This document shows positions 1,759 through 64,000 of a DNA stretch of 64,000 bases, in pieces. The notes beneath the pieces were generated by a model that worked only from the letters and a program-made list of their open reading frames with translations, did no database searches and was not told the DNA's origin. The stretch is taken from contig JAEVEX010000061.1 in the NCBI GenBank assembly GCA_016842085.1, positions 1 to 64,000 of the forward strand. Reading direction: 5' to 3'. Position numbers and translations under genes: made by a program. The stretch comes from Candidatus Thermoflexus tengchongensis. Lineage in GTDB: Bacteria; Chloroflexota; Anaerolineae; Thermoflexales; Thermoflexaceae. Position 1 is the stretch's first letter. Each line of letters opens with the position of its first letter.

Positions 1759-4062
1759 ATGAACAGGGATCGCATTCGGGTCGCTCTGGTGGGGACTTAT
1801 GTGCCCCGGCAGTGCGGGATCGCCACATTCACGCACGATCTGGCAAAGGCCATTGCCGAGGCCCAGGGAGAGCCGCTGGACCGCTCCAGGAGCGTCCAGA
1901 TCGTTGCCCTCACCAACCCGCCTCACTGCTATGCCTATGGTCCGGAGGTGATCTTCGAGATCCGGGATGAAATCCCGGAAGACTACCGGGCCGCGGCGGA
2001 TTACCTGAACCAGACCCGTGTGGATGTGGTCTGCCTGCAGCACGAGTATGGGATCTTTGGAGGGACGGATGGCGCATATGTGCTGGATCTGGTGGAAGCC
2101 CTGCGCAAACCCCTGGTGGTTACCCTGCACACCGTTCTCTTTGAACCATCGGAGAACCAGCGGCGGATTCTGATCGCCCTCGCCCGCCGGGCGGATCGCG
2201 TGGTGGTGATGACGGAGCGGGCCCGTCAGTTCCTGATGGAGCGCTATGGGGTGCCCGCCGAGCAGATCGAACGGATCGACCATGGGGCCCCCGCTATGCC
2301 TTTTGAGGATCCCGCCCCCTATAAGGCGCGCCTGGGGCTGGAGGGACGGCGGGTGCTGATGACCTTCGGGCTGCTCAGCCCGAATAAGGGGATCGAGACG
2401 GTGATCGAGGCGATGAAGACGCTTGTCCCCCGGCATCCCGATCTCCTGTATCTGATCGTGGGGGCGACCCATCCGGAGGTCCGCCGCCGGTTCGGCGAAT
2501 CCTACCGCCGCTCCCTGGAGGAAGCGATCGCGCGGGCCGGGTTGCAGGATCATATCCGCTTCGTGGATCGCTATCTGGATCGAGAGGAGCTGCTGACGTT
2601 CCTGATGGCGGCGGATATCTACGTTGCGCCCTATCTGGCGCGGGAGCAGATCGTTTCCGGCACCCTGACCTACGCCCTTGCCTGCGGAAAGGCCATCCTC
2701 TCCACGCCCTCGTGGTATGCGGAGGAGATCCTGGGGGATGGGCGGGGCATCCTGGTTCCCTTCCAGGATCCGGAGGCCATGGCCCGGGCGCTGGACTACC
2801 TGCTCTCCCATCCGGAGGAACGCGAGCGGTTGCGCCGGGCCGCCTATGAGCGGGGACGGGAGATGGCGTGGCCGGTCATCGGCCACCGCTACCTGGACCT
2901 GTTCCGGAGGGTCCTGGAACACCCCCGGTCGGTTCATCGCCCGGCCTGGCTTCCCCTCCGCCCATCGAAGTTGCCTGCAATACGCCTGGAGCACCTGCGC
3001 CAGCTCACCGACGATACGGGCCTCCTCCAGCACGCACGGGGGACGATCCCGGACCGACAGTTCGGCTACTGCACCGACGACAACGCCCGCGGGCTGCTGG
3101 TGATCGTGCGGGAATGGACGCGGAGCAGGGATCCTTCCCTCCTTCCATTGATGAAGACATATCTGGCGTTTCTGATCCACGCCTGGAATCCCGAGCGCGG
3201 GCGATTCCGCAACTTCATGGGCTACGACCGGCGATGGCTGGAGGAAGTCGGATCCGAGGATGCGCATGGCCGCGCCCTCTGGGCGCTGGGCGAGGCCATG
3301 GTGTTCGGGCCAGAGGATCTTCAGGCCATCGCCGCTGCGTTGTTCCGGGAGGCCTGGCCAGCCAGCCAGGCATTTCAGCATCCGCGGCCCTGGGCGTATG
3401 CCATTCTGGGAGGCCTGGCCAGTTTAGAGCGGTTTCCGGGCGATCTCCGATTGCGAGAGGGAGTGAAGGAACTGGCCCAGCGTCTGGCGGATCGTTTCCA
3501 GGCTCACGCCCGGCCCGACTGGCGGTGGTGCGATGAGGTGGTCACCTACGATAATGGGATTCTGCCGGCGGCCCTGATCGCTGCCGGGCATCGCCTGCGA
3601 GAGCCGCGATGGGTCACGGGGGGCCTGGACGCCCTGCGATGGCTGGTGGAGATCCAGACCGATCCCCAGGGAGGGCATTTCTCCTGGATCGGAAACCGGG
3701 GATGGTTCCCCCGGGGCGGGTCCAGGGCCCGGTTCGCCCAGCAGCCCCTGGAAGGAGCGGCCATGGCGGAAGCGGCGGCGCGGGCCTGGGAGGCCACCCG
3801 GGATGCGCGCTGGCTGGAAGTCCTGGAACGGTGCGTCGGCTGGTTCCTCGGGTGGAACGACCGGGGATGCGCTCTGGCGGATCCCAAGACCGGCGGATGC
3901 CGGGATGGCCTGGAGCCGCTCGGGCCCAGCATCCACCAGGGCGCGGAATCCACCCTGGCCTGGCTGCTCACGCTCCAGCTGGCCCATCGGCTGCTCCCGT
4001 CCGCTCCCGAGCGGATCCTGTCGGCGCAGGCCCGGTCGCTGTTCTCCCGGGCTCCTGCATGA
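1759..4062 (+). CDS. GT4 glycosyltransferase fused to a six-hairpin (alpha/alpha) domain
   Basis: Cytoplasmic 767-residue fusion. Residues 1 to about 385 are a GT-B fold family 4 transferase: N-terminal VALVGTYVPRQCGIATFTHDLA, acceptor-side HEYGIFGG, the second Rossmann start MTFGLLSPNKGIE and the donor-site segment REQIVSGTLTYALACGK. Residues about 395-760 are helical with GYCTDDNARGLL, MGYDRRW, TYDNGI and GAESTLAWLL, typical of six-hairpin glycosidase-like domains often encoded beside such transferases. ATG follows AGGAGGTGAGAG. The preceding gene is GH130, so the pair probably builds and trims or recycles a mannose-containing saccharide; substrate unknown. Confidence 0.85.
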   Translation: MNRDRIRVALVGTYVPRQCGIATFTHDLAKAIAEAQGEPLDRSRSVQIVALTNPPHCYAYGPEVIFEIRDEIPEDYRAAADYLNQTRVDVVCLQHEYGIFGGTDGAYVLDLVEALRKPLVVTLHTVLFEPSENQRRILIALARRADRVVVMTERARQFLMERYGVPAEQIERIDHGAPAMPFEDPAPYKARLGLEGRRVLMTFGLLSPNKGIETVIEAMKTLVPRHPDLLYLIVGATHPEVRRRFGESYRRSLEEAIARAGLQDHIRFVDRYLDREELLTFLMAADIYVAPYLAREQIVSGTLTYALACGKAILSTPSWYAEEILGDGRGILVPFQDPEAMARALDYLLSHPEERERLRRAAYERGREMAWPVIGHRYLDLFRRVLEHPRSVHRPAWLPLRPSKLPAIRLEHLRQLTDDTGLLQHARGTIPDRQFGYCTDDNARGLLVIVREWTRSRDPSLLPLMKTYLAFLIHAWNPERGRFRNFMGYDRRWLEEVGSEDAHGRALWALGEAMVFGPEDLQAIAAALFREAWPASQAFQHPRPWAYAILGGLASLERFPGDLRLREGVKELAQRLADRFQAHARPDWRWCDEVVTYDNGILPAALIAAGHRLREPRWVTGGLDALRWLVEIQTDPQGGHFSWIGNRGWFPRGGSRARFAQQPLEGAAMAEAAARAWEATRDARWLEVLERCVGWFLGWNDRGCALADPKTGGCRDGLEPLGPSIHQGAESTLAWLLTLQLAHRLLPSAPERILSAQARSLFSRAPA

Positions 4063-60977: not shown

Positions 60978-61685
60978 GTGGAGGCGATCGGACTGTGGGC
61001 GCCACCGGTCCTCCGCGCGGCGCTGGCCGCTCGATTCCCGGATTTGCGTCCTCTCTCTGCCGTGGAGGAGCTGAAGGCCTGCTCCTGCGCGTTTCCCCTT
61101 TTGCTGGCCGGCGAGGGGATCTGTCCCTCCGGGTGGCTGCTTGCCGCCTTCCTGCGCGCAGAGGACCCGACCCGCCCCCTGGCCCTGCTGGAGAGCCGGT
61201 GCACCCCCCTGTCGATCTGGGTCGCCGGGGAGATCGGCCTGAACGCGATCCTGGACCTCACCCGAACCCCGGAGGAATGGGCCGAGGCCCTCGCCTGCCT
61301 GGCCCGGGGTCAGATCGCCTGGCCCTCGGACCTCCTGGACCAGGCGGCCGACTTCGAGCGCGGCCTGGGCAGGCGGCTGCGCCGCCTTTCCCCCCGGGAT
61401 TGGGCCCGCTGGCGGGATCTGGCCGCCGGGCTTCCCCCCAAGGCCCTGGCGGCCCGCTGGGGCCTCTCCCCCGCCGGCGTGAGCCGTTACCTCCGCCGCC
61501 TGGCGGATCGCCTGGGGGTCGCAGGCCCGATGGACCTCCTCTGCCTGGGCCTCGCCATCGGGATCTGGGTCGGCCCGCCCGGCGCCCCCCGGCTCGCCCT
61601 ACCCCTCCAGGCCTGGCGCCTCCTCCGGGCCGCCGGAGACCCACCCGCTGTCAAAAATTGGAACACACACATGTCAAAAAAATGA
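60978..61685 (+). CDS. LuxR-type (GerE-like) transcriptional regulator with divergent N-terminal domain
   Basis: 235 residues from GTG 60978, preceded by GAAAGG. Residues about 135-200 look like a LuxR/GerE helix-turn-helix: LSPRDWARWRDLAAGLPPKALAARWGLSPAGVSRYLRRLADRLGV. The N-terminal 120 residues have the alpha/beta rhythm of a receiver domain but no aligned phospho-acceptor Asp is seen, so it is probably a pseudo-receiver. The last twelve codons read into AT-rich repeated DNA (61649-61689), so the C terminus may be altered. It is the nearest regulator to the DCC/Cys-rich gene array that follows. Confidence 0.6.
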   Translation: MEAIGLWAPPVLRAALAARFPDLRPLSAVEELKACSCAFPLLLAGEGICPSGWLLAAFLRAEDPTRPLALLESRCTPLSIWVAGEIGLNAILDLTRTPEEWAEALACLARGQIAWPSDLLDQAADFERGLGRRLRRLSPRDWARWRDLAAGLPPKALAARWGLSPAGVSRYLRRLADRLGVAGPMDLLCLGLAIGIWVGPPGAPRLALPLQAWRLLRAAGDPPAVKNWNTHMSKK

Positions 61686-61689
61686 ACAC
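61649..61689. repeat. Two 18-bp direct repeats at a 23-bp period
   Basis: TGTCAAAAATTGGAACAC (61649-61666) and TGTCAAAAAAATGAACAC (61672-61689) lie in the same orientation, overlapping the end of the LuxR-type gene. AT-rich against a GC-rich background. Repeated TGT-starting ends are known for IS21-like elements, but no transposase is adjacent; a binding-site array is the alternative. The 213 bases from here to the DCC gene show no other gene. Confidence 0.5.
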
Positions 61690-61902
61690 TCCAGCCTGGA
61701 CATCGCTGCCGGACCTGCTTACCATCGAGGATGGATCCAGCGGTCCCTCCAGACTCGGCCGCCGGACGGGATCGCCGGATCCACCGGCTAAGAGCATTGA
61801 ACCCAGGAGGGAAGCTACGAGTTCAACACGCGCAGATTACAGAAAACCCTTGCAGGGTGATAGGTGGACTACCCCTGGACAATTATCAAGGAGGGAAAAC
61901 CC

Positions 61903-62349
61903 ATGTCGAACCGGTGGCTGTTATATGACAGTGGATGTTCCGTGTGCGCCGCCCTGGCCCAGGAGGTGGAGGCCTCCAGCGGCGGGCGGCTGGGGGTGCG
62001 CTCCCTGCGCGATCCCGAGGTCCAGGCGATGCTGAACCGGGCGAAACCGGGCTGGCGCTGGGAGCCGATGCTCCTCGAAATCGAGGGGGAGCACGTCCGG
62101 GTCTTCACGGGTCTCGCGATGCGGATGCGGTTGCTCCAGATCCTGGGCCCCGTGCGAGCCCTGCGGGTGGCCCAGGTCGTGGCCCGCTTCGGTGAGCCCG
62201 TGCTCGGGGTGGATTGGGGAAGGCGCGATTTCCTCCATCGGGCGGGAGGAGCCCTGCTCGGCTTTCTGGCGCTGCAAGGCTTAGGAACTCCGCTCTCCGC
62301 CGGAGCCACCGAGCCGCCCATCCCTCCCAGGGCTTTCCAGTTTTCATAG
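61903..62349 (+). pseudogene. 5' half of a split gene: DCC thiol-redox domain plus internal Tat signal
   Basis: 148 codons from ATG 61903 (AAGGAGGGAAAACCC precedes it). Residues 8-15 YDSGCSVC carry the CxxC of the DCC (DUF393-type) thiol-disulphide family. Residues 105-128 WGRRDFLHRAGGALLGFLA form a textbook twin-arginine motif and hydrophobic core, unusually placed after a folded domain. The last six codons and the stop lie inside the inserted element at 62328. Excising 62328-62586 joins this frame to the 8-Cys reading frame at 62587-63154, giving a 330-residue protein. The truncated product may still be made. Confidence 0.8.
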
Positions 62350-62577
62350 CTTTCGGCGGATCAGCGGGCTTAGACCCTGATCATGCCAGGCGCTTAAGGC
62401 CCGGAATCCGTCGACCACGAACCGGTAACCCAGGGCTCTGAGCCGGTTAAGGGCCAGGTTCCGGATCCGACGGAGCCCCGGCCCGATCTTCCGTCCATGC
62501 CGCCGGTCTTCCCTCAAACTCCCATCACGGATCCAGTAGAGCCGGTTCTTGATAGCTCAGAAAACCGGAAAGCCCTG
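62328..62577 (-). mobile_element. 250-bp non-autonomous ISAs1-type element (MITE-like)
   Basis: Terminal inverted repeats CAGGGCTTTCCAGTTTTC (62328-62345) and the complement of CAGGGCTTTCCGGTTTTC (62560-62577) differ at one base. Flanking 9-bp target duplication CATCCCTCC at 62319-62327 and 62578-62586. The interior encodes only the last 70 residues of a transposase on the reverse strand. ISAs1 elements are known for CAGGG-type ends and 8-10 bp duplications, which fits. Inserted in a coding region. Confidence 0.9.
62344..62556 (-). pseudogene. Transposase C-terminal fragment (ISAs1-like)
   Basis: Reverse-strand frame reading AIKNRLYWIRDGSLREDRR then RIRNLALNRLRALGYRFVVD and ending IRRKL-stop. 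The pattern IxNxLxxxRDxxxxED followed by RNLAxxxLR is the usual ISAs1 transposase C terminus. A TGA precedes it in frame, and the catalytic DDE domain is missing, so it cannot mobilise itself. Confidence 0.75.
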
Positions 62578-62586
62578 CATCCCTCC

Positions 62587-63154
62587 CCCATCTCCCCAGC
62601 CCTCCCGCCGACGGGTGCAAAATGGAGAACCCCTCTACAGCGCCCTCTTCCAACAGGCCCAGAAACAGTTCCGCTTTGAGCGATGGAACGCCGAACCGAA
62701 CTGGGAGGAGGTGTGGCTATATTCTTTTGAGAGGGGCTCCGCCCTGGTCGCCCCGCTGTCCCCATCCGGCCCATCCCAGCGCTTCCTGACCGCCCCCGTG
62801 CGCGGGACGGAGATCCTGGCCCTATATGTGGTGGAGATCGAACTGAAGGAAGGTCCTGCTCGCTCCGGACGTGTCCACGTAGTGCGACCCGAAGGATTGA
62901 GCGTTGTGGAAATCCAACTGGAGGATGGACGCGTTGCTGCCGTGCGTCCGACCTTCACGCGCCGGAACAGTCGTTCTCCGGGGCATCCCGCTCCTCTCAG
63001 GAATGTTTGCTGTGACTGGTTTCGACTGTGGGCTTGCATCTCCGCCGGAACCGTTCCTTGCGAGCTCGGTTTCTTTTGGGACCCCGCGGCTCTGGCCGCT
63101 TGCCTTGCTGCGGTTGTGGCCGGCTGTATGGCCACTTTATGCTGGTTCTGTTAA
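62587..63154 (+). pseudogene. 3' half of the split gene: leader domain and 8-cysteine bacteriocin-like domain
   Basis: In-frame continuation of the gene begun at 61903 once the element is removed. The open frame starts inside the element (TTG 62549), and neither that codon nor GTG 62615 has a ribosome site. About 100 residues (YSALFQQAQKQFRFERW, WLYSFERGSALVAPLSPSG, VVEIELKEG) resemble a propeptide. The last 50 residues (63002-63151) hold eight Cys: CC-x7-C-x7-C-x13-C-x7-C-x4-C-x2-C, ending in Cys. This resembles halocin C8-like Cys-rich precursors; assignment is tentative. Confidence 0.65.
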
Positions 63155-63179: not shown

Positions 63180-63524
63180 ATGTTAGAACGCGGCTGGCGG
63201 TGGTCTCTGATCATCCTGCAGATCGTTTGGATGGCAGTCGCCTTCGGGCTCGCTGTGGGCTCCGGGATATCTTCACTGCCCGTGATGGCTTTGTTAAGCC
63301 CGCTCCTCGGGGCTGCAATCGCTACTTTCACTCCCATCCAGGCCGGGATATGGGTGGGAGGGGGATTCGTGCTCCTGGGATATGGAAGTCTGCTCATCGC
63401 AGGATGGATGAAGCAATTCTATGGCCCCCTGGAGCCAATCGCGGTCATCGCCGTGCAAGTCCTTTGCGCCGGTTGGATATGGGAGCGAGCCCGGCAGTGG
63501 CGCACATCGCAGCCCGGGAGGTGA
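63180..63524 (+). CDS. Small polytopic membrane protein after the Cys-rich gene
   Basis: 114 residues with three to four hydrophobic helices (WSLIILQIVWMAVAFGLAVG, LPVMALLSPLLGAAIATFT, AGIWVGGGFVLLGYGSLLIAGW, PIAVIAVQVLCAGWIW). CAAAGGGGATTCCG precedes ATG 63180, 25 bases after the stop of the Cys-rich frame. Position and size would suit an immunity or export partner of a secreted peptide, but no family is recognised. Its last codons overlap the degenerate DCC copy. Confidence 0.6.
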   Translation: MLERGWRWSLIILQIVWMAVAFGLAVGSGISSLPVMALLSPLLGAAIATFTPIQAGIWVGGGFVLLGYGSLLIAGWMKQFYGPLEPIAVIAVQVLCAGWIWERARQWRTSQPGR

Positions 63525-63763
63525 AAGCCCGCTGCGCCGGGCGGATGGGGGCACGGAGTTTGCACGATCCCAAGGTTCGGGCCCTGCTGAACCAGGCCCG
63601 CCCCGGCTGGCGCTGGGAGCCGATGCTCCTCGAAATCGAGGGGGAGCACGTCCGGGTCTTCACGGGTCTCGCGATGCGCTGGCGCCTCATGCAGATCCTG
63701 GATCTCGAAGACCCGCCCCCACTCGGCGAGGATCGGATCGACGAGGGGTTCCTCAAAAAATGA
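63500..63763 (+). pseudogene. Degenerate DCC-family copy
   Basis: About 88 codons homologous to the middle of the 61903 gene (AREVKARCAGRMGARSLHD, then WRWEPMLLEIEGEHVRVF). The N-terminal CxxC region is missing, replaced by the end of the membrane-protein gene, and the frame stops before the Tat motif. Bases 63605-63678 are identical to 62050-62123 (74 bp), indicating recent duplication or gene conversion. Confidence 0.8.
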
Positions 63764-63800
63764 GGAAGGCCAGACGGCTTTTTCCTCCAAAAATGAGGAA
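63749..63800. repeat. Pair of near-identical AT-loop hairpins
   Basis: TTCCTCA-AAAAA-TGAGGAA (63749-63767) and TTCCTC-CAAAAAT-GAGGAA (63782-63800) lie 33 bases apart. The first overlaps the stop codon of the degenerate copy. They could act as terminators or operators ahead of the next DCC gene; a TAAGAT at 63822 may be its -10. Confidence 0.55.
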
Positions 63801-63860
63801 GCGCGAGGAGGGCGAAGGGGATAAGATGAGAAGTGGAACCTCTTCCAGGGAGGCGAGGCC

Positions 63861-64000
63861 ATGATCGAACGATATCTTCTCTTTGACAGCGGGTGTGCGA
63901 TGTGCGCGGCCCTGGCGCGGGAGGTGGAGGCCCGGAGCGGCGGGCGGCTGGGGGTGCGCTCGCTGCGGGAGCCCGAGGTGCAGGCCCTGCTGAACCAGGC
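63861..64000 (+). CDS. DCC thiol-redox family protein, third copy (5' part)
   Basis: ATG 63861 after GGAGGCGAGGCC begins MIERYLLFDSGCAMCAALAR, with the CxxC at residues 12-15, and continues with SGGRLGVRSLREPEVQALL, closely matching the 61903 protein. It runs off the window after 46 codons. Whether it also has the Tat signal and an intact Cys-rich C terminus cannot be seen here; this is the copy most likely to show the ancestral architecture. Confidence 0.85.
   Translation, partial: MIERYLLFDSGCAMCAALAREVEARSGGRLGVRSLREPEVQALLNQ

Follow-up and report, generated by a model that had tools for sequence, protein, structure and literature searches.

A DCC-Like Head Joined through an Internal Tat Signal to Variable Exported Parts in Thermoflexus and Other Bacteria

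The formation of disulfides is usually assigned to compartments outside the cytoplasm, and the Tat pathway exports folded proteins. Canonical DCC proteins are stand-alone, and in the precursor of halocin C8 a Tat signal, an intermediate domain, and a hydrophobic Cys-rich peptide are found together. The production of halocin C8 and the immunity to it come from a single gene, as Sun et al. (2005) are cited in PMC6759562. Tat refuses some substrates whose cytoplasmic disulfides are unformed (PMC6708511). MauE is thought to aid disulfide formation in the beta subunit of methylamine dehydrogenase, and with decRiPPter, MauE/MauD genes have been found beside putative Streptomyces precursors containing at least 8 Cys (PMC7794033).

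Like the halocin C8 precursor (ProC8/HalI-HalC8; TIGR04449), the protein of the locus described here combines a Tat signal, an intermediate domain, and a hydrophobic Cys-rich peptide in one precursor, but it begins with a DCC-like head that comes before the Tat signal, and a gene of its own encodes the membrane protein downstream. Membership of TIGR04449 was considered and rejected, as none of 249 Anaerolineae genomes contains a protein above its threshold (best score 10.9 bits, for a member from genome G023, versus 24). In the Streptomyces proteins recognized by the fulvocin C-related model NF033852, the same head, a Tat signal, and a Cys-rich C-terminus occur in one ORF. The model, however, spans the C-terminal part only, and the head lies outside the described family. 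Over the C-terminal ~140 residues, the score is 105.6 bits for the S. anulatus protein (WP_330323407) and 102.6 bits for that of S. goshikiensis (WP_322872104), against a cut-off of 35 bits. The exported part of the present locus gives no match to NF033852. Its earlier description as bacteriocin-like finds real backing in the Streptomyces members, where the same head stands in front of this curated domain.

Polymorphic toxins likewise have a conserved N-terminal module, variable C-terminal effectors, an adjacent immunity-like gene, and swapping; they differ in that the present family has no known trafficking domain of the polymorphic-toxin kind, is predicted to be exported by Tat, and has a redox domain as its conserved module. 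As in the MauD/MauE maturation pair of methylamine dehydrogenase and the candidate RiPP clusters that contain Mau genes, a thiol-redox helper accompanies an exported protein that has many cysteines. In the Mau systems, however, the helper is a separate gene, whereas here the redox domain is fused before the export signal of the cargo or of its carrier.

The Split Gene in the Window

The window, i.e., the whole stretch of 64,000 nucleotides that was analyzed, comes from a Thermoflexus draft genome of 3.89 Mb. The gene of interest spans positions 61903-63154 and is interrupted. It is preceded by a gene for a LuxR-type HTH regulator of 235 aa (60978..61685, plus strand), which scores 19 bits with the GerE model, below the cut-off of 23.5, and by two direct copies of a TGTCAAAAATTGGAACAC-like sequence (61649..61689, repeat family D17) that may represent an operator. 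A strong Shine-Dalgarno sequence, AAGGAGGG, can be read directly at 61888..61895 on the plus strand, ahead of the ATG at 61903.

The DCC-like frame that starts there (61903-62349, plus strand) encodes 148 aa. Residues 1-104 (61903..62214) constitute the DCC-like head, to which a thioredoxin fold is assigned on the basis of the AF2 and Foldseek results discussed below. The translated frame contains a CxxC (CSVC, residues 12-15, 61936..61947) within the string YDSGCSVC (residues 8-15), which has the N-terminal DxxCxxC motif of the DCC1-like family (PF04134). It is followed by an internal Tat signal at residues 106-136 (62218..62310), GRRDFLHRAGG plus a hydrophobic stretch. The full Tat-type signal reads GVDW-GRRDFLHRAGGALLGFLALQGLG, a twin-arginine motif and then a hydrophobic stretch, as in Tat substrates. 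The exported part is encoded by the Cys-rich frame at 62588..63154 (plus strand, 188 aa) and consists of a spacer domain and a Cys-rich tail. The last 48 residues (63008..63151) form a hydrophobic tail with eight Cys (CCDWF...LCWFC). This frame is now out of phase with the head, whose own frame stops inside an inserted element.

The element (62328..62577) is 250 bp long, has 27-bp terminal inverted repeats that are 85% complementary, and is bordered by a 9-bp target site duplication, CATCCCTCC, read directly at 62319..62327 and 62578..62586. On the minus strand it retains a remnant of a transposase C-terminus (62344..62517), recognized by comparison with the ORF of the parent element. Further copies and pieces occur in the genome, among them the 1197-bp parent itself at C56:22447-23643, which has a DDE_Tnp_1-associated domain (PF13808, 50 bits) and a transposase that seems to be split across two frames. 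The terminal inverted repeats, a target duplication within the 8-10 bp of the ISAs1 family, and the DDE_Tnp_1-associated transposase of the parent place the element in that family, although the window copy is an internally deleted, non-autonomous derivative. One copy, at C74, matches the element at 100% identity over 192 bp, which suggests recent activity.

An earlier note on this DNA had read the two frames as one gene, and the arithmetic agrees with it: removal of the element and one copy of the repeat leaves 425 + 568 = 993 bases, or 331 codons. The motif positions given there are also recovered, with the CxxC at residues 12-15, GRRDFLHRAGG starting from residue 106, and the eight Cys in the final 48 residues. 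Independent evidence that the two halves once formed a single frame comes from genomes G004 and G003, where the Tat part and the same Cys-rich part lie in one open frame, the element is absent, and the number of residues across the insertion site is identical to that in the window. No relative was seen in which the DCC-like and Cys-rich halves are separate genes at the homologous place.

The exported part has orthologues at 59% (G004), 54% (G003), and 41% (G006) identity. The start of the head, including the CxxC, is missing in two of them (the first ~26 residues in G004 and ~55 in G003), and these genes are therefore not complete three-part examples. The cargo frame of these two orthologues is nevertheless still under selection, with a dN/dS of ~0.38, despite the lost CxxC half. 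The G004 copy resides at a different genomic place from the window gene, and an intact full-length gene with exactly the window cargo was not found among the relatives. The insertion is probably recent and has probably inactivated the window copy, which is disrupted and probably yields a head-Tat stub only.

At 63180..63524 (plus strand), 25 bp downstream of the cargo, a membrane protein of 114 aa with 3-4 hydrophobic helices is encoded, and small membrane ORFs resembling it are likewise found behind this cargo in G003 and G004; it is a candidate immunity protein. A decayed piece of another DCC-like head (63494..63703, plus strand, repeat family D1) and two tandem palindromes TTCCTC-N-GAGGAA (63749..63801, repeat family D4) come next, the latter ahead of another headed gene that starts in the window (63861..64000, plus strand) and continues to contig position 64736. 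The earlier note had counted it as a third copy. Read to its end, it encodes a head, a signal sequence, and a matrixin metalloprotease (291 aa; PF00413, 45 bits) and not the same peptide.

The Family and Its Head

It is close to certain that the order head, Tat signal, and cargo is a genuine and widespread architecture. Many intact homologues have all three parts in a single ORF, which the earlier note had named as support, not only in the genus but also across Chloroflexota and beyond. The family layout comprises a DCC-like head of ~100 residues with a thioredoxin fold, a CxxC at about residues 11-15, a Tat motif at about 104-113, and a variable cargo. The head is found, whole or as pieces, at 19 places in this genome and is present in eight of the nine Thermoflexus genomes examined. 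Outside the genus, the same order occurs in other Anaerolineae and elsewhere in Chloroflexota, on plasmids of Thermomicrobium roseum and Rubrobacter radiotolerans, and on Streptomyces plasmids. The T. roseum member is annotated by NCBI as a single protein. No description of the three-part architecture was found in the open-access literature searched.

Among 15 wider homologues, the CxxC lies near residues 11-20 in 14 and the RR at about residues 104-113 in all; the exception without CxxC is the Cys-rich member of G023, the only one that exceeds the cut-off of the Tat model TIGR01409 (17.3 versus 16.7). Several Thermoflexus copies lack the CxxC half of the head, and damaged heads (truncated, frameshifted, or interrupted) are numerous in the genus.

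An AF2 model based on 19 diverse heads has pLDDT block means of 87-96 over residues 1-90 and the order strand-helix-strand-helix-strand-strand-helix, which is of thioredoxin type. The best Foldseek matches are mostly thioredoxins and PDI (probability 0.96-1.0, E about 3e-3, TM about 0.3-0.5), and the third match is a streptococcal bacteriocin transport accessory protein. The modest E-values support the fold class but no specific relative, and on the strength of the model the head is predicted to adopt a thioredoxin-like fold. A PDB sequence search with the head profile returned chance-level matches only.

The assignment to the DCC family made in the earlier note is more delicate. The heads share with the DCC1-like oxidoreductases (PF04134) the LLFDxxCxxC start and the thioredoxin-like fold, and they match the Pfam profile repeatedly and from its position 1. 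However, all members tested score below the curated cut-off of 27.8 bits (14.3 for the window head and 24.4 for the best member), and the genome also encodes a separate canonical DCC protein (75 bits). Alignment of the heads with canonical DCC proteins by hhalign gives a probability of 82%, limited to 37 columns around the CxxC. We refer to the head as DCC-like rather than as a DCC member.

Among 13 intact heads, dN/dS is 0.26-0.28, with the CxxC part and the remainder behaving alike, which shows that the head is kept as a protein under purifying selection. In a tree of the head DNA, one well-supported clade of nine heads spans at least five different cargos. The window head groups with heads of other cargos, and the G004 head that precedes the window cargo groups with that of a gene 7.6 kb away carrying a different exported part, the W domain described below. 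At the orthologous locus L010/L076, the near flanks and the cargo are mostly 94-99% identical, while the head is 84-92% identical. In Thermoflexus, heads have thus been exchanged among unrelated cargos, and gene conversion of the head between paralogues would be the simplest reading of these patterns.

A few peculiarities of individual heads should also be mentioned. Contig BEHK01000145.1 (L095), filed as Bacterium HR08, bears a Thermoflexus-type head and may be misbinned. The first ~45 bp of a head (LLYDSGCSVCAALA) are found inside short repeats (RLSQSPENGSRSCK) at two other genomic places, L012 (~4972) and L013 (~5113), on G000 C80 and C75, respectively. In the Streptomyces sp. NBC_01224 plasmid NZ_CP108530.1 (L179), the annotated start of the gene at 2501-3451, named 'bacteriocin fulvocin C-related protein', omits a head, complete with CxxC and Tat motif, that lies in the same frame. 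An unannotated head match just upstream of the gene in L181 (NZ_CP108874.1) is a candidate for the same case.

Cargos, Partners, and Neighbors

The exported parts fall into several types. A Cys-poor W domain of ~200 residues is present in intact headed ORFs at L006, L008, L075, and L081-L083, and a ten-Cys cargo in intact headed ORFs at L010, L076, and L087. Matrixin-type metalloproteases with about four Cys occur at L005 and L009, a 26-Cys tail in a headed ORF at L084, and a 22-Cys tail at L092, where the N-terminus is replaced. The L095 protein has a Cys-rich part resembling a double-psi barrel (lytic-transglycosylase-like, 17 bits). For the ten-Cys cargo of L010, the light chain of methylamine dehydrogenase (MauA) was considered and rejected, as no PDB profile match was obtained.

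The type of cargo correlates with the downstream gene. Of 21 genes with Cys-rich tails, 16 have a membrane ORF with at least two hydrophobic helices no more than 150 bp behind them, compared with none of 13 W and matrixin genes (Fisher 1e-5, or about 6e-4 once orthologues are roughly collapsed); in the ten-Cys type, the ORF is longer and permease-like. Directly upstream, an HTH regulator (LuxR-type or similar) is found in the window, at L150, L154, and L156, and in T. roseum, with GerE scores of 47 bits at L150 and 39 bits at L154. Read from gene order, a regulator, a Cys-rich cargo, and a membrane protein would correspond to the layout of a regulated bacteriocin with its immunity.

The W genes have a neighbor of another kind. 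Each of the 13 W genes examined has a Cys-rich partner ORF behind it, complete or as a fragment, and no such partner is found near the matrixin-type cargos. The partner ORFs encode about 120-225 residues, begin at a conserved N-terminus, and have no signal peptide. They form an alignable family with invariant YAP, D, GH, and HxH, in the string YVYAPxSG...YGH...GxHxH; examples at L075 (11768-12418), L008 (from 5487), L122 (2540-3037), and L127 have about 165-225 aa and up to 25 Cys. The invariant residues are reminiscent of M23 peptidases, but this assignment was rejected, as neither Pfam nor PDB profiles match the family. We infer that W could carry the partner out as a Tat hitchhiker, which would account for both the missing signal of the partner and the head on W.

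Several loci link the family to disulfide chemistry. In G206, one gene joins a head to a MauD-like domain, whose 82.8 bits do not reach the cut-off of the MauD equivalog, and a head-Tat-TPR-Cys-rich gene comes next. G077 shares this layout. At two W/partner loci without a head, in G253 and G096, W has an ordinary N-terminal Tat signal and MauE adjoins both (79.7 and 91.2 bits, cut-off 27); only two such loci were found. The same search gives no MauE match for three headed loci from outside the genus, and a MauE motif was not seen in the loci of Thermoflexus either.

In G206 and G077, the head-MauD gene and the head-Tat-Cys-rich gene are followed by genes for a beta-propeller-like lipoprotein and for a protein of radical-SAM-like type with the string NCNARCGHCLL (L210 9384-12009 and L211 1748-4398), an arrangement that recalls peptide maturation clusters.

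Proposed Function and Alternatives

On the basis of the above observations, we propose the following scenario. The head would be a cytoplasmic DCC-like domain with a CxxC, followed by an internal Tat (sometimes Sec-like) signal and the variable exported part. It would oxidize or isomerize the cysteines of the effector before or during export by Tat, which favors folded cargo. In genes of the window type, the head would act in cis, on the Cys-rich, bacteriocin-like tail of its own polypeptide. With the Cys-poor W cargo it would act in trans, on the signal-less Cys-rich partner from the same operon, for which W possibly serves as the carrier. The exported Cys-rich part would then act outside the cell, most likely on competitors, and the neighboring small membrane protein would shield the producer. 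We give this reading, i.e., a redox-headed exported family in which the head oxidizes a Cys-rich effector before Tat export for antimicrobial use, a probability of about 0.5.

The proposal that the module treats the disulfides of its own cargo, already made in the earlier note, is thus retained in part. It agrees with the existence of Cys-rich partners, with the fusion to MauD, and with MauE as a neighbor, whereas the G023 member without CxxC, the losses of the CxxC half in the orthologues and in other copies, and the matrixin cargos with their few cysteines do not fit it. Given these exceptions and the fact that only two headless loci are available, we put the probability of catalysis by the head between about one third and one half. 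The more general picture of an export platform, with a built-in disulfide catalyst working in cis or in trans, a head kept uniform by conversion, and cargos swapped to give a polymorphic bacteriocin-like arsenal, is offered tentatively.

The exceptions also bear on what the head would do otherwise. It might serve in trafficking or anchoring, as a conserved N-terminal cytoplasmic tag by which the protein is stalled at or targeted to the membrane or the Tat machinery, or it might sense redox state, and gene conversion would keep it uniform as a platform on which new cargos recombine. Such a role would agree with the presence of the same head before Cys-few cargos (the matrixin types and W itself), with its homogenization independently of the cargo, and with the one member and the several Thermoflexus copies that lack the CxxC or its half of the head. 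We regard it as possible but doubtful, since almost all other members, whatever their phylum, have the CxxC and purifying selection acts on it, and since thiol chemistry is indicated by the partners in trans as well as by the fusion to MauD and the MauE neighbors. Another alternative, in which an unrelated DCC gene fragment came into frame with a Cys-rich gene by chance and the window is a graveyard of recombining head pieces, could draw on the many damaged heads of the genus and on the insertion in the window copy itself. The intact single-ORF fusions, which keep their spacing from phylum to phylum, the purifying selection, and the T. roseum protein annotated by NCBI already refute a chance fusion at the level of the family, and we consider this alternative highly improbable.

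A different question is whether the exported parts are weapons at all. They could be ordinary secreted digestive or envelope proteins, with the cysteines serving thermal stability, and the matrixin cargos and the double-psi barrel tail of L095 (17 bits) point in this direction, as does the proteolytic metabolism of T. hugenholtzii with its many secreted peptidases (PMC8129789). However, members from mesophilic Streptomyces pair this head with a curated bacteriocin domain, the small membrane proteins come after hydrophobic Cys-rich tails and not after W or matrixin parts, and the tails vary widely between species in a weapon-like manner, all of which makes a purely digestive or envelope role unlikely.

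The redox-headed reading suggests that bacteria build a disulfide-making tool into a weapon or its carrier, with a head that is apparently exchangeable with helpers of the MauD/MauE type, and the oxidation of Tat-exported disulfide-rich peptides becomes testable within one polypeptide. Fulvocin C-related tails, halocin C8-like precursors, and Mau-associated Cys-rich precursors are already known parts. As a search handle, the head additionally finds, in Chloroflexota and Actinomycetota, Cys-rich bacteriocin-like precursors and a new partner family that are missed by tail-based models.

Two further features recur beside these genes. WD40/beta-propeller proteins and lipoproteins are found next to headed or W genes in different genomes (L075 5808-8357 and 13642-15177, L009 4065-5603, and L208 4741-5985). 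Several headed genes in G000, G008, G004, and HR08 are preceded by tandem palindromes, TTCCTCAAAAAATGAGGAA, which stand before genes with differing cargos in the window (63749-63801) as well as at L006 (4024 and 4057), L093 (551 and 584), and L095 (182); they are possibly a common operator of the headed genes.
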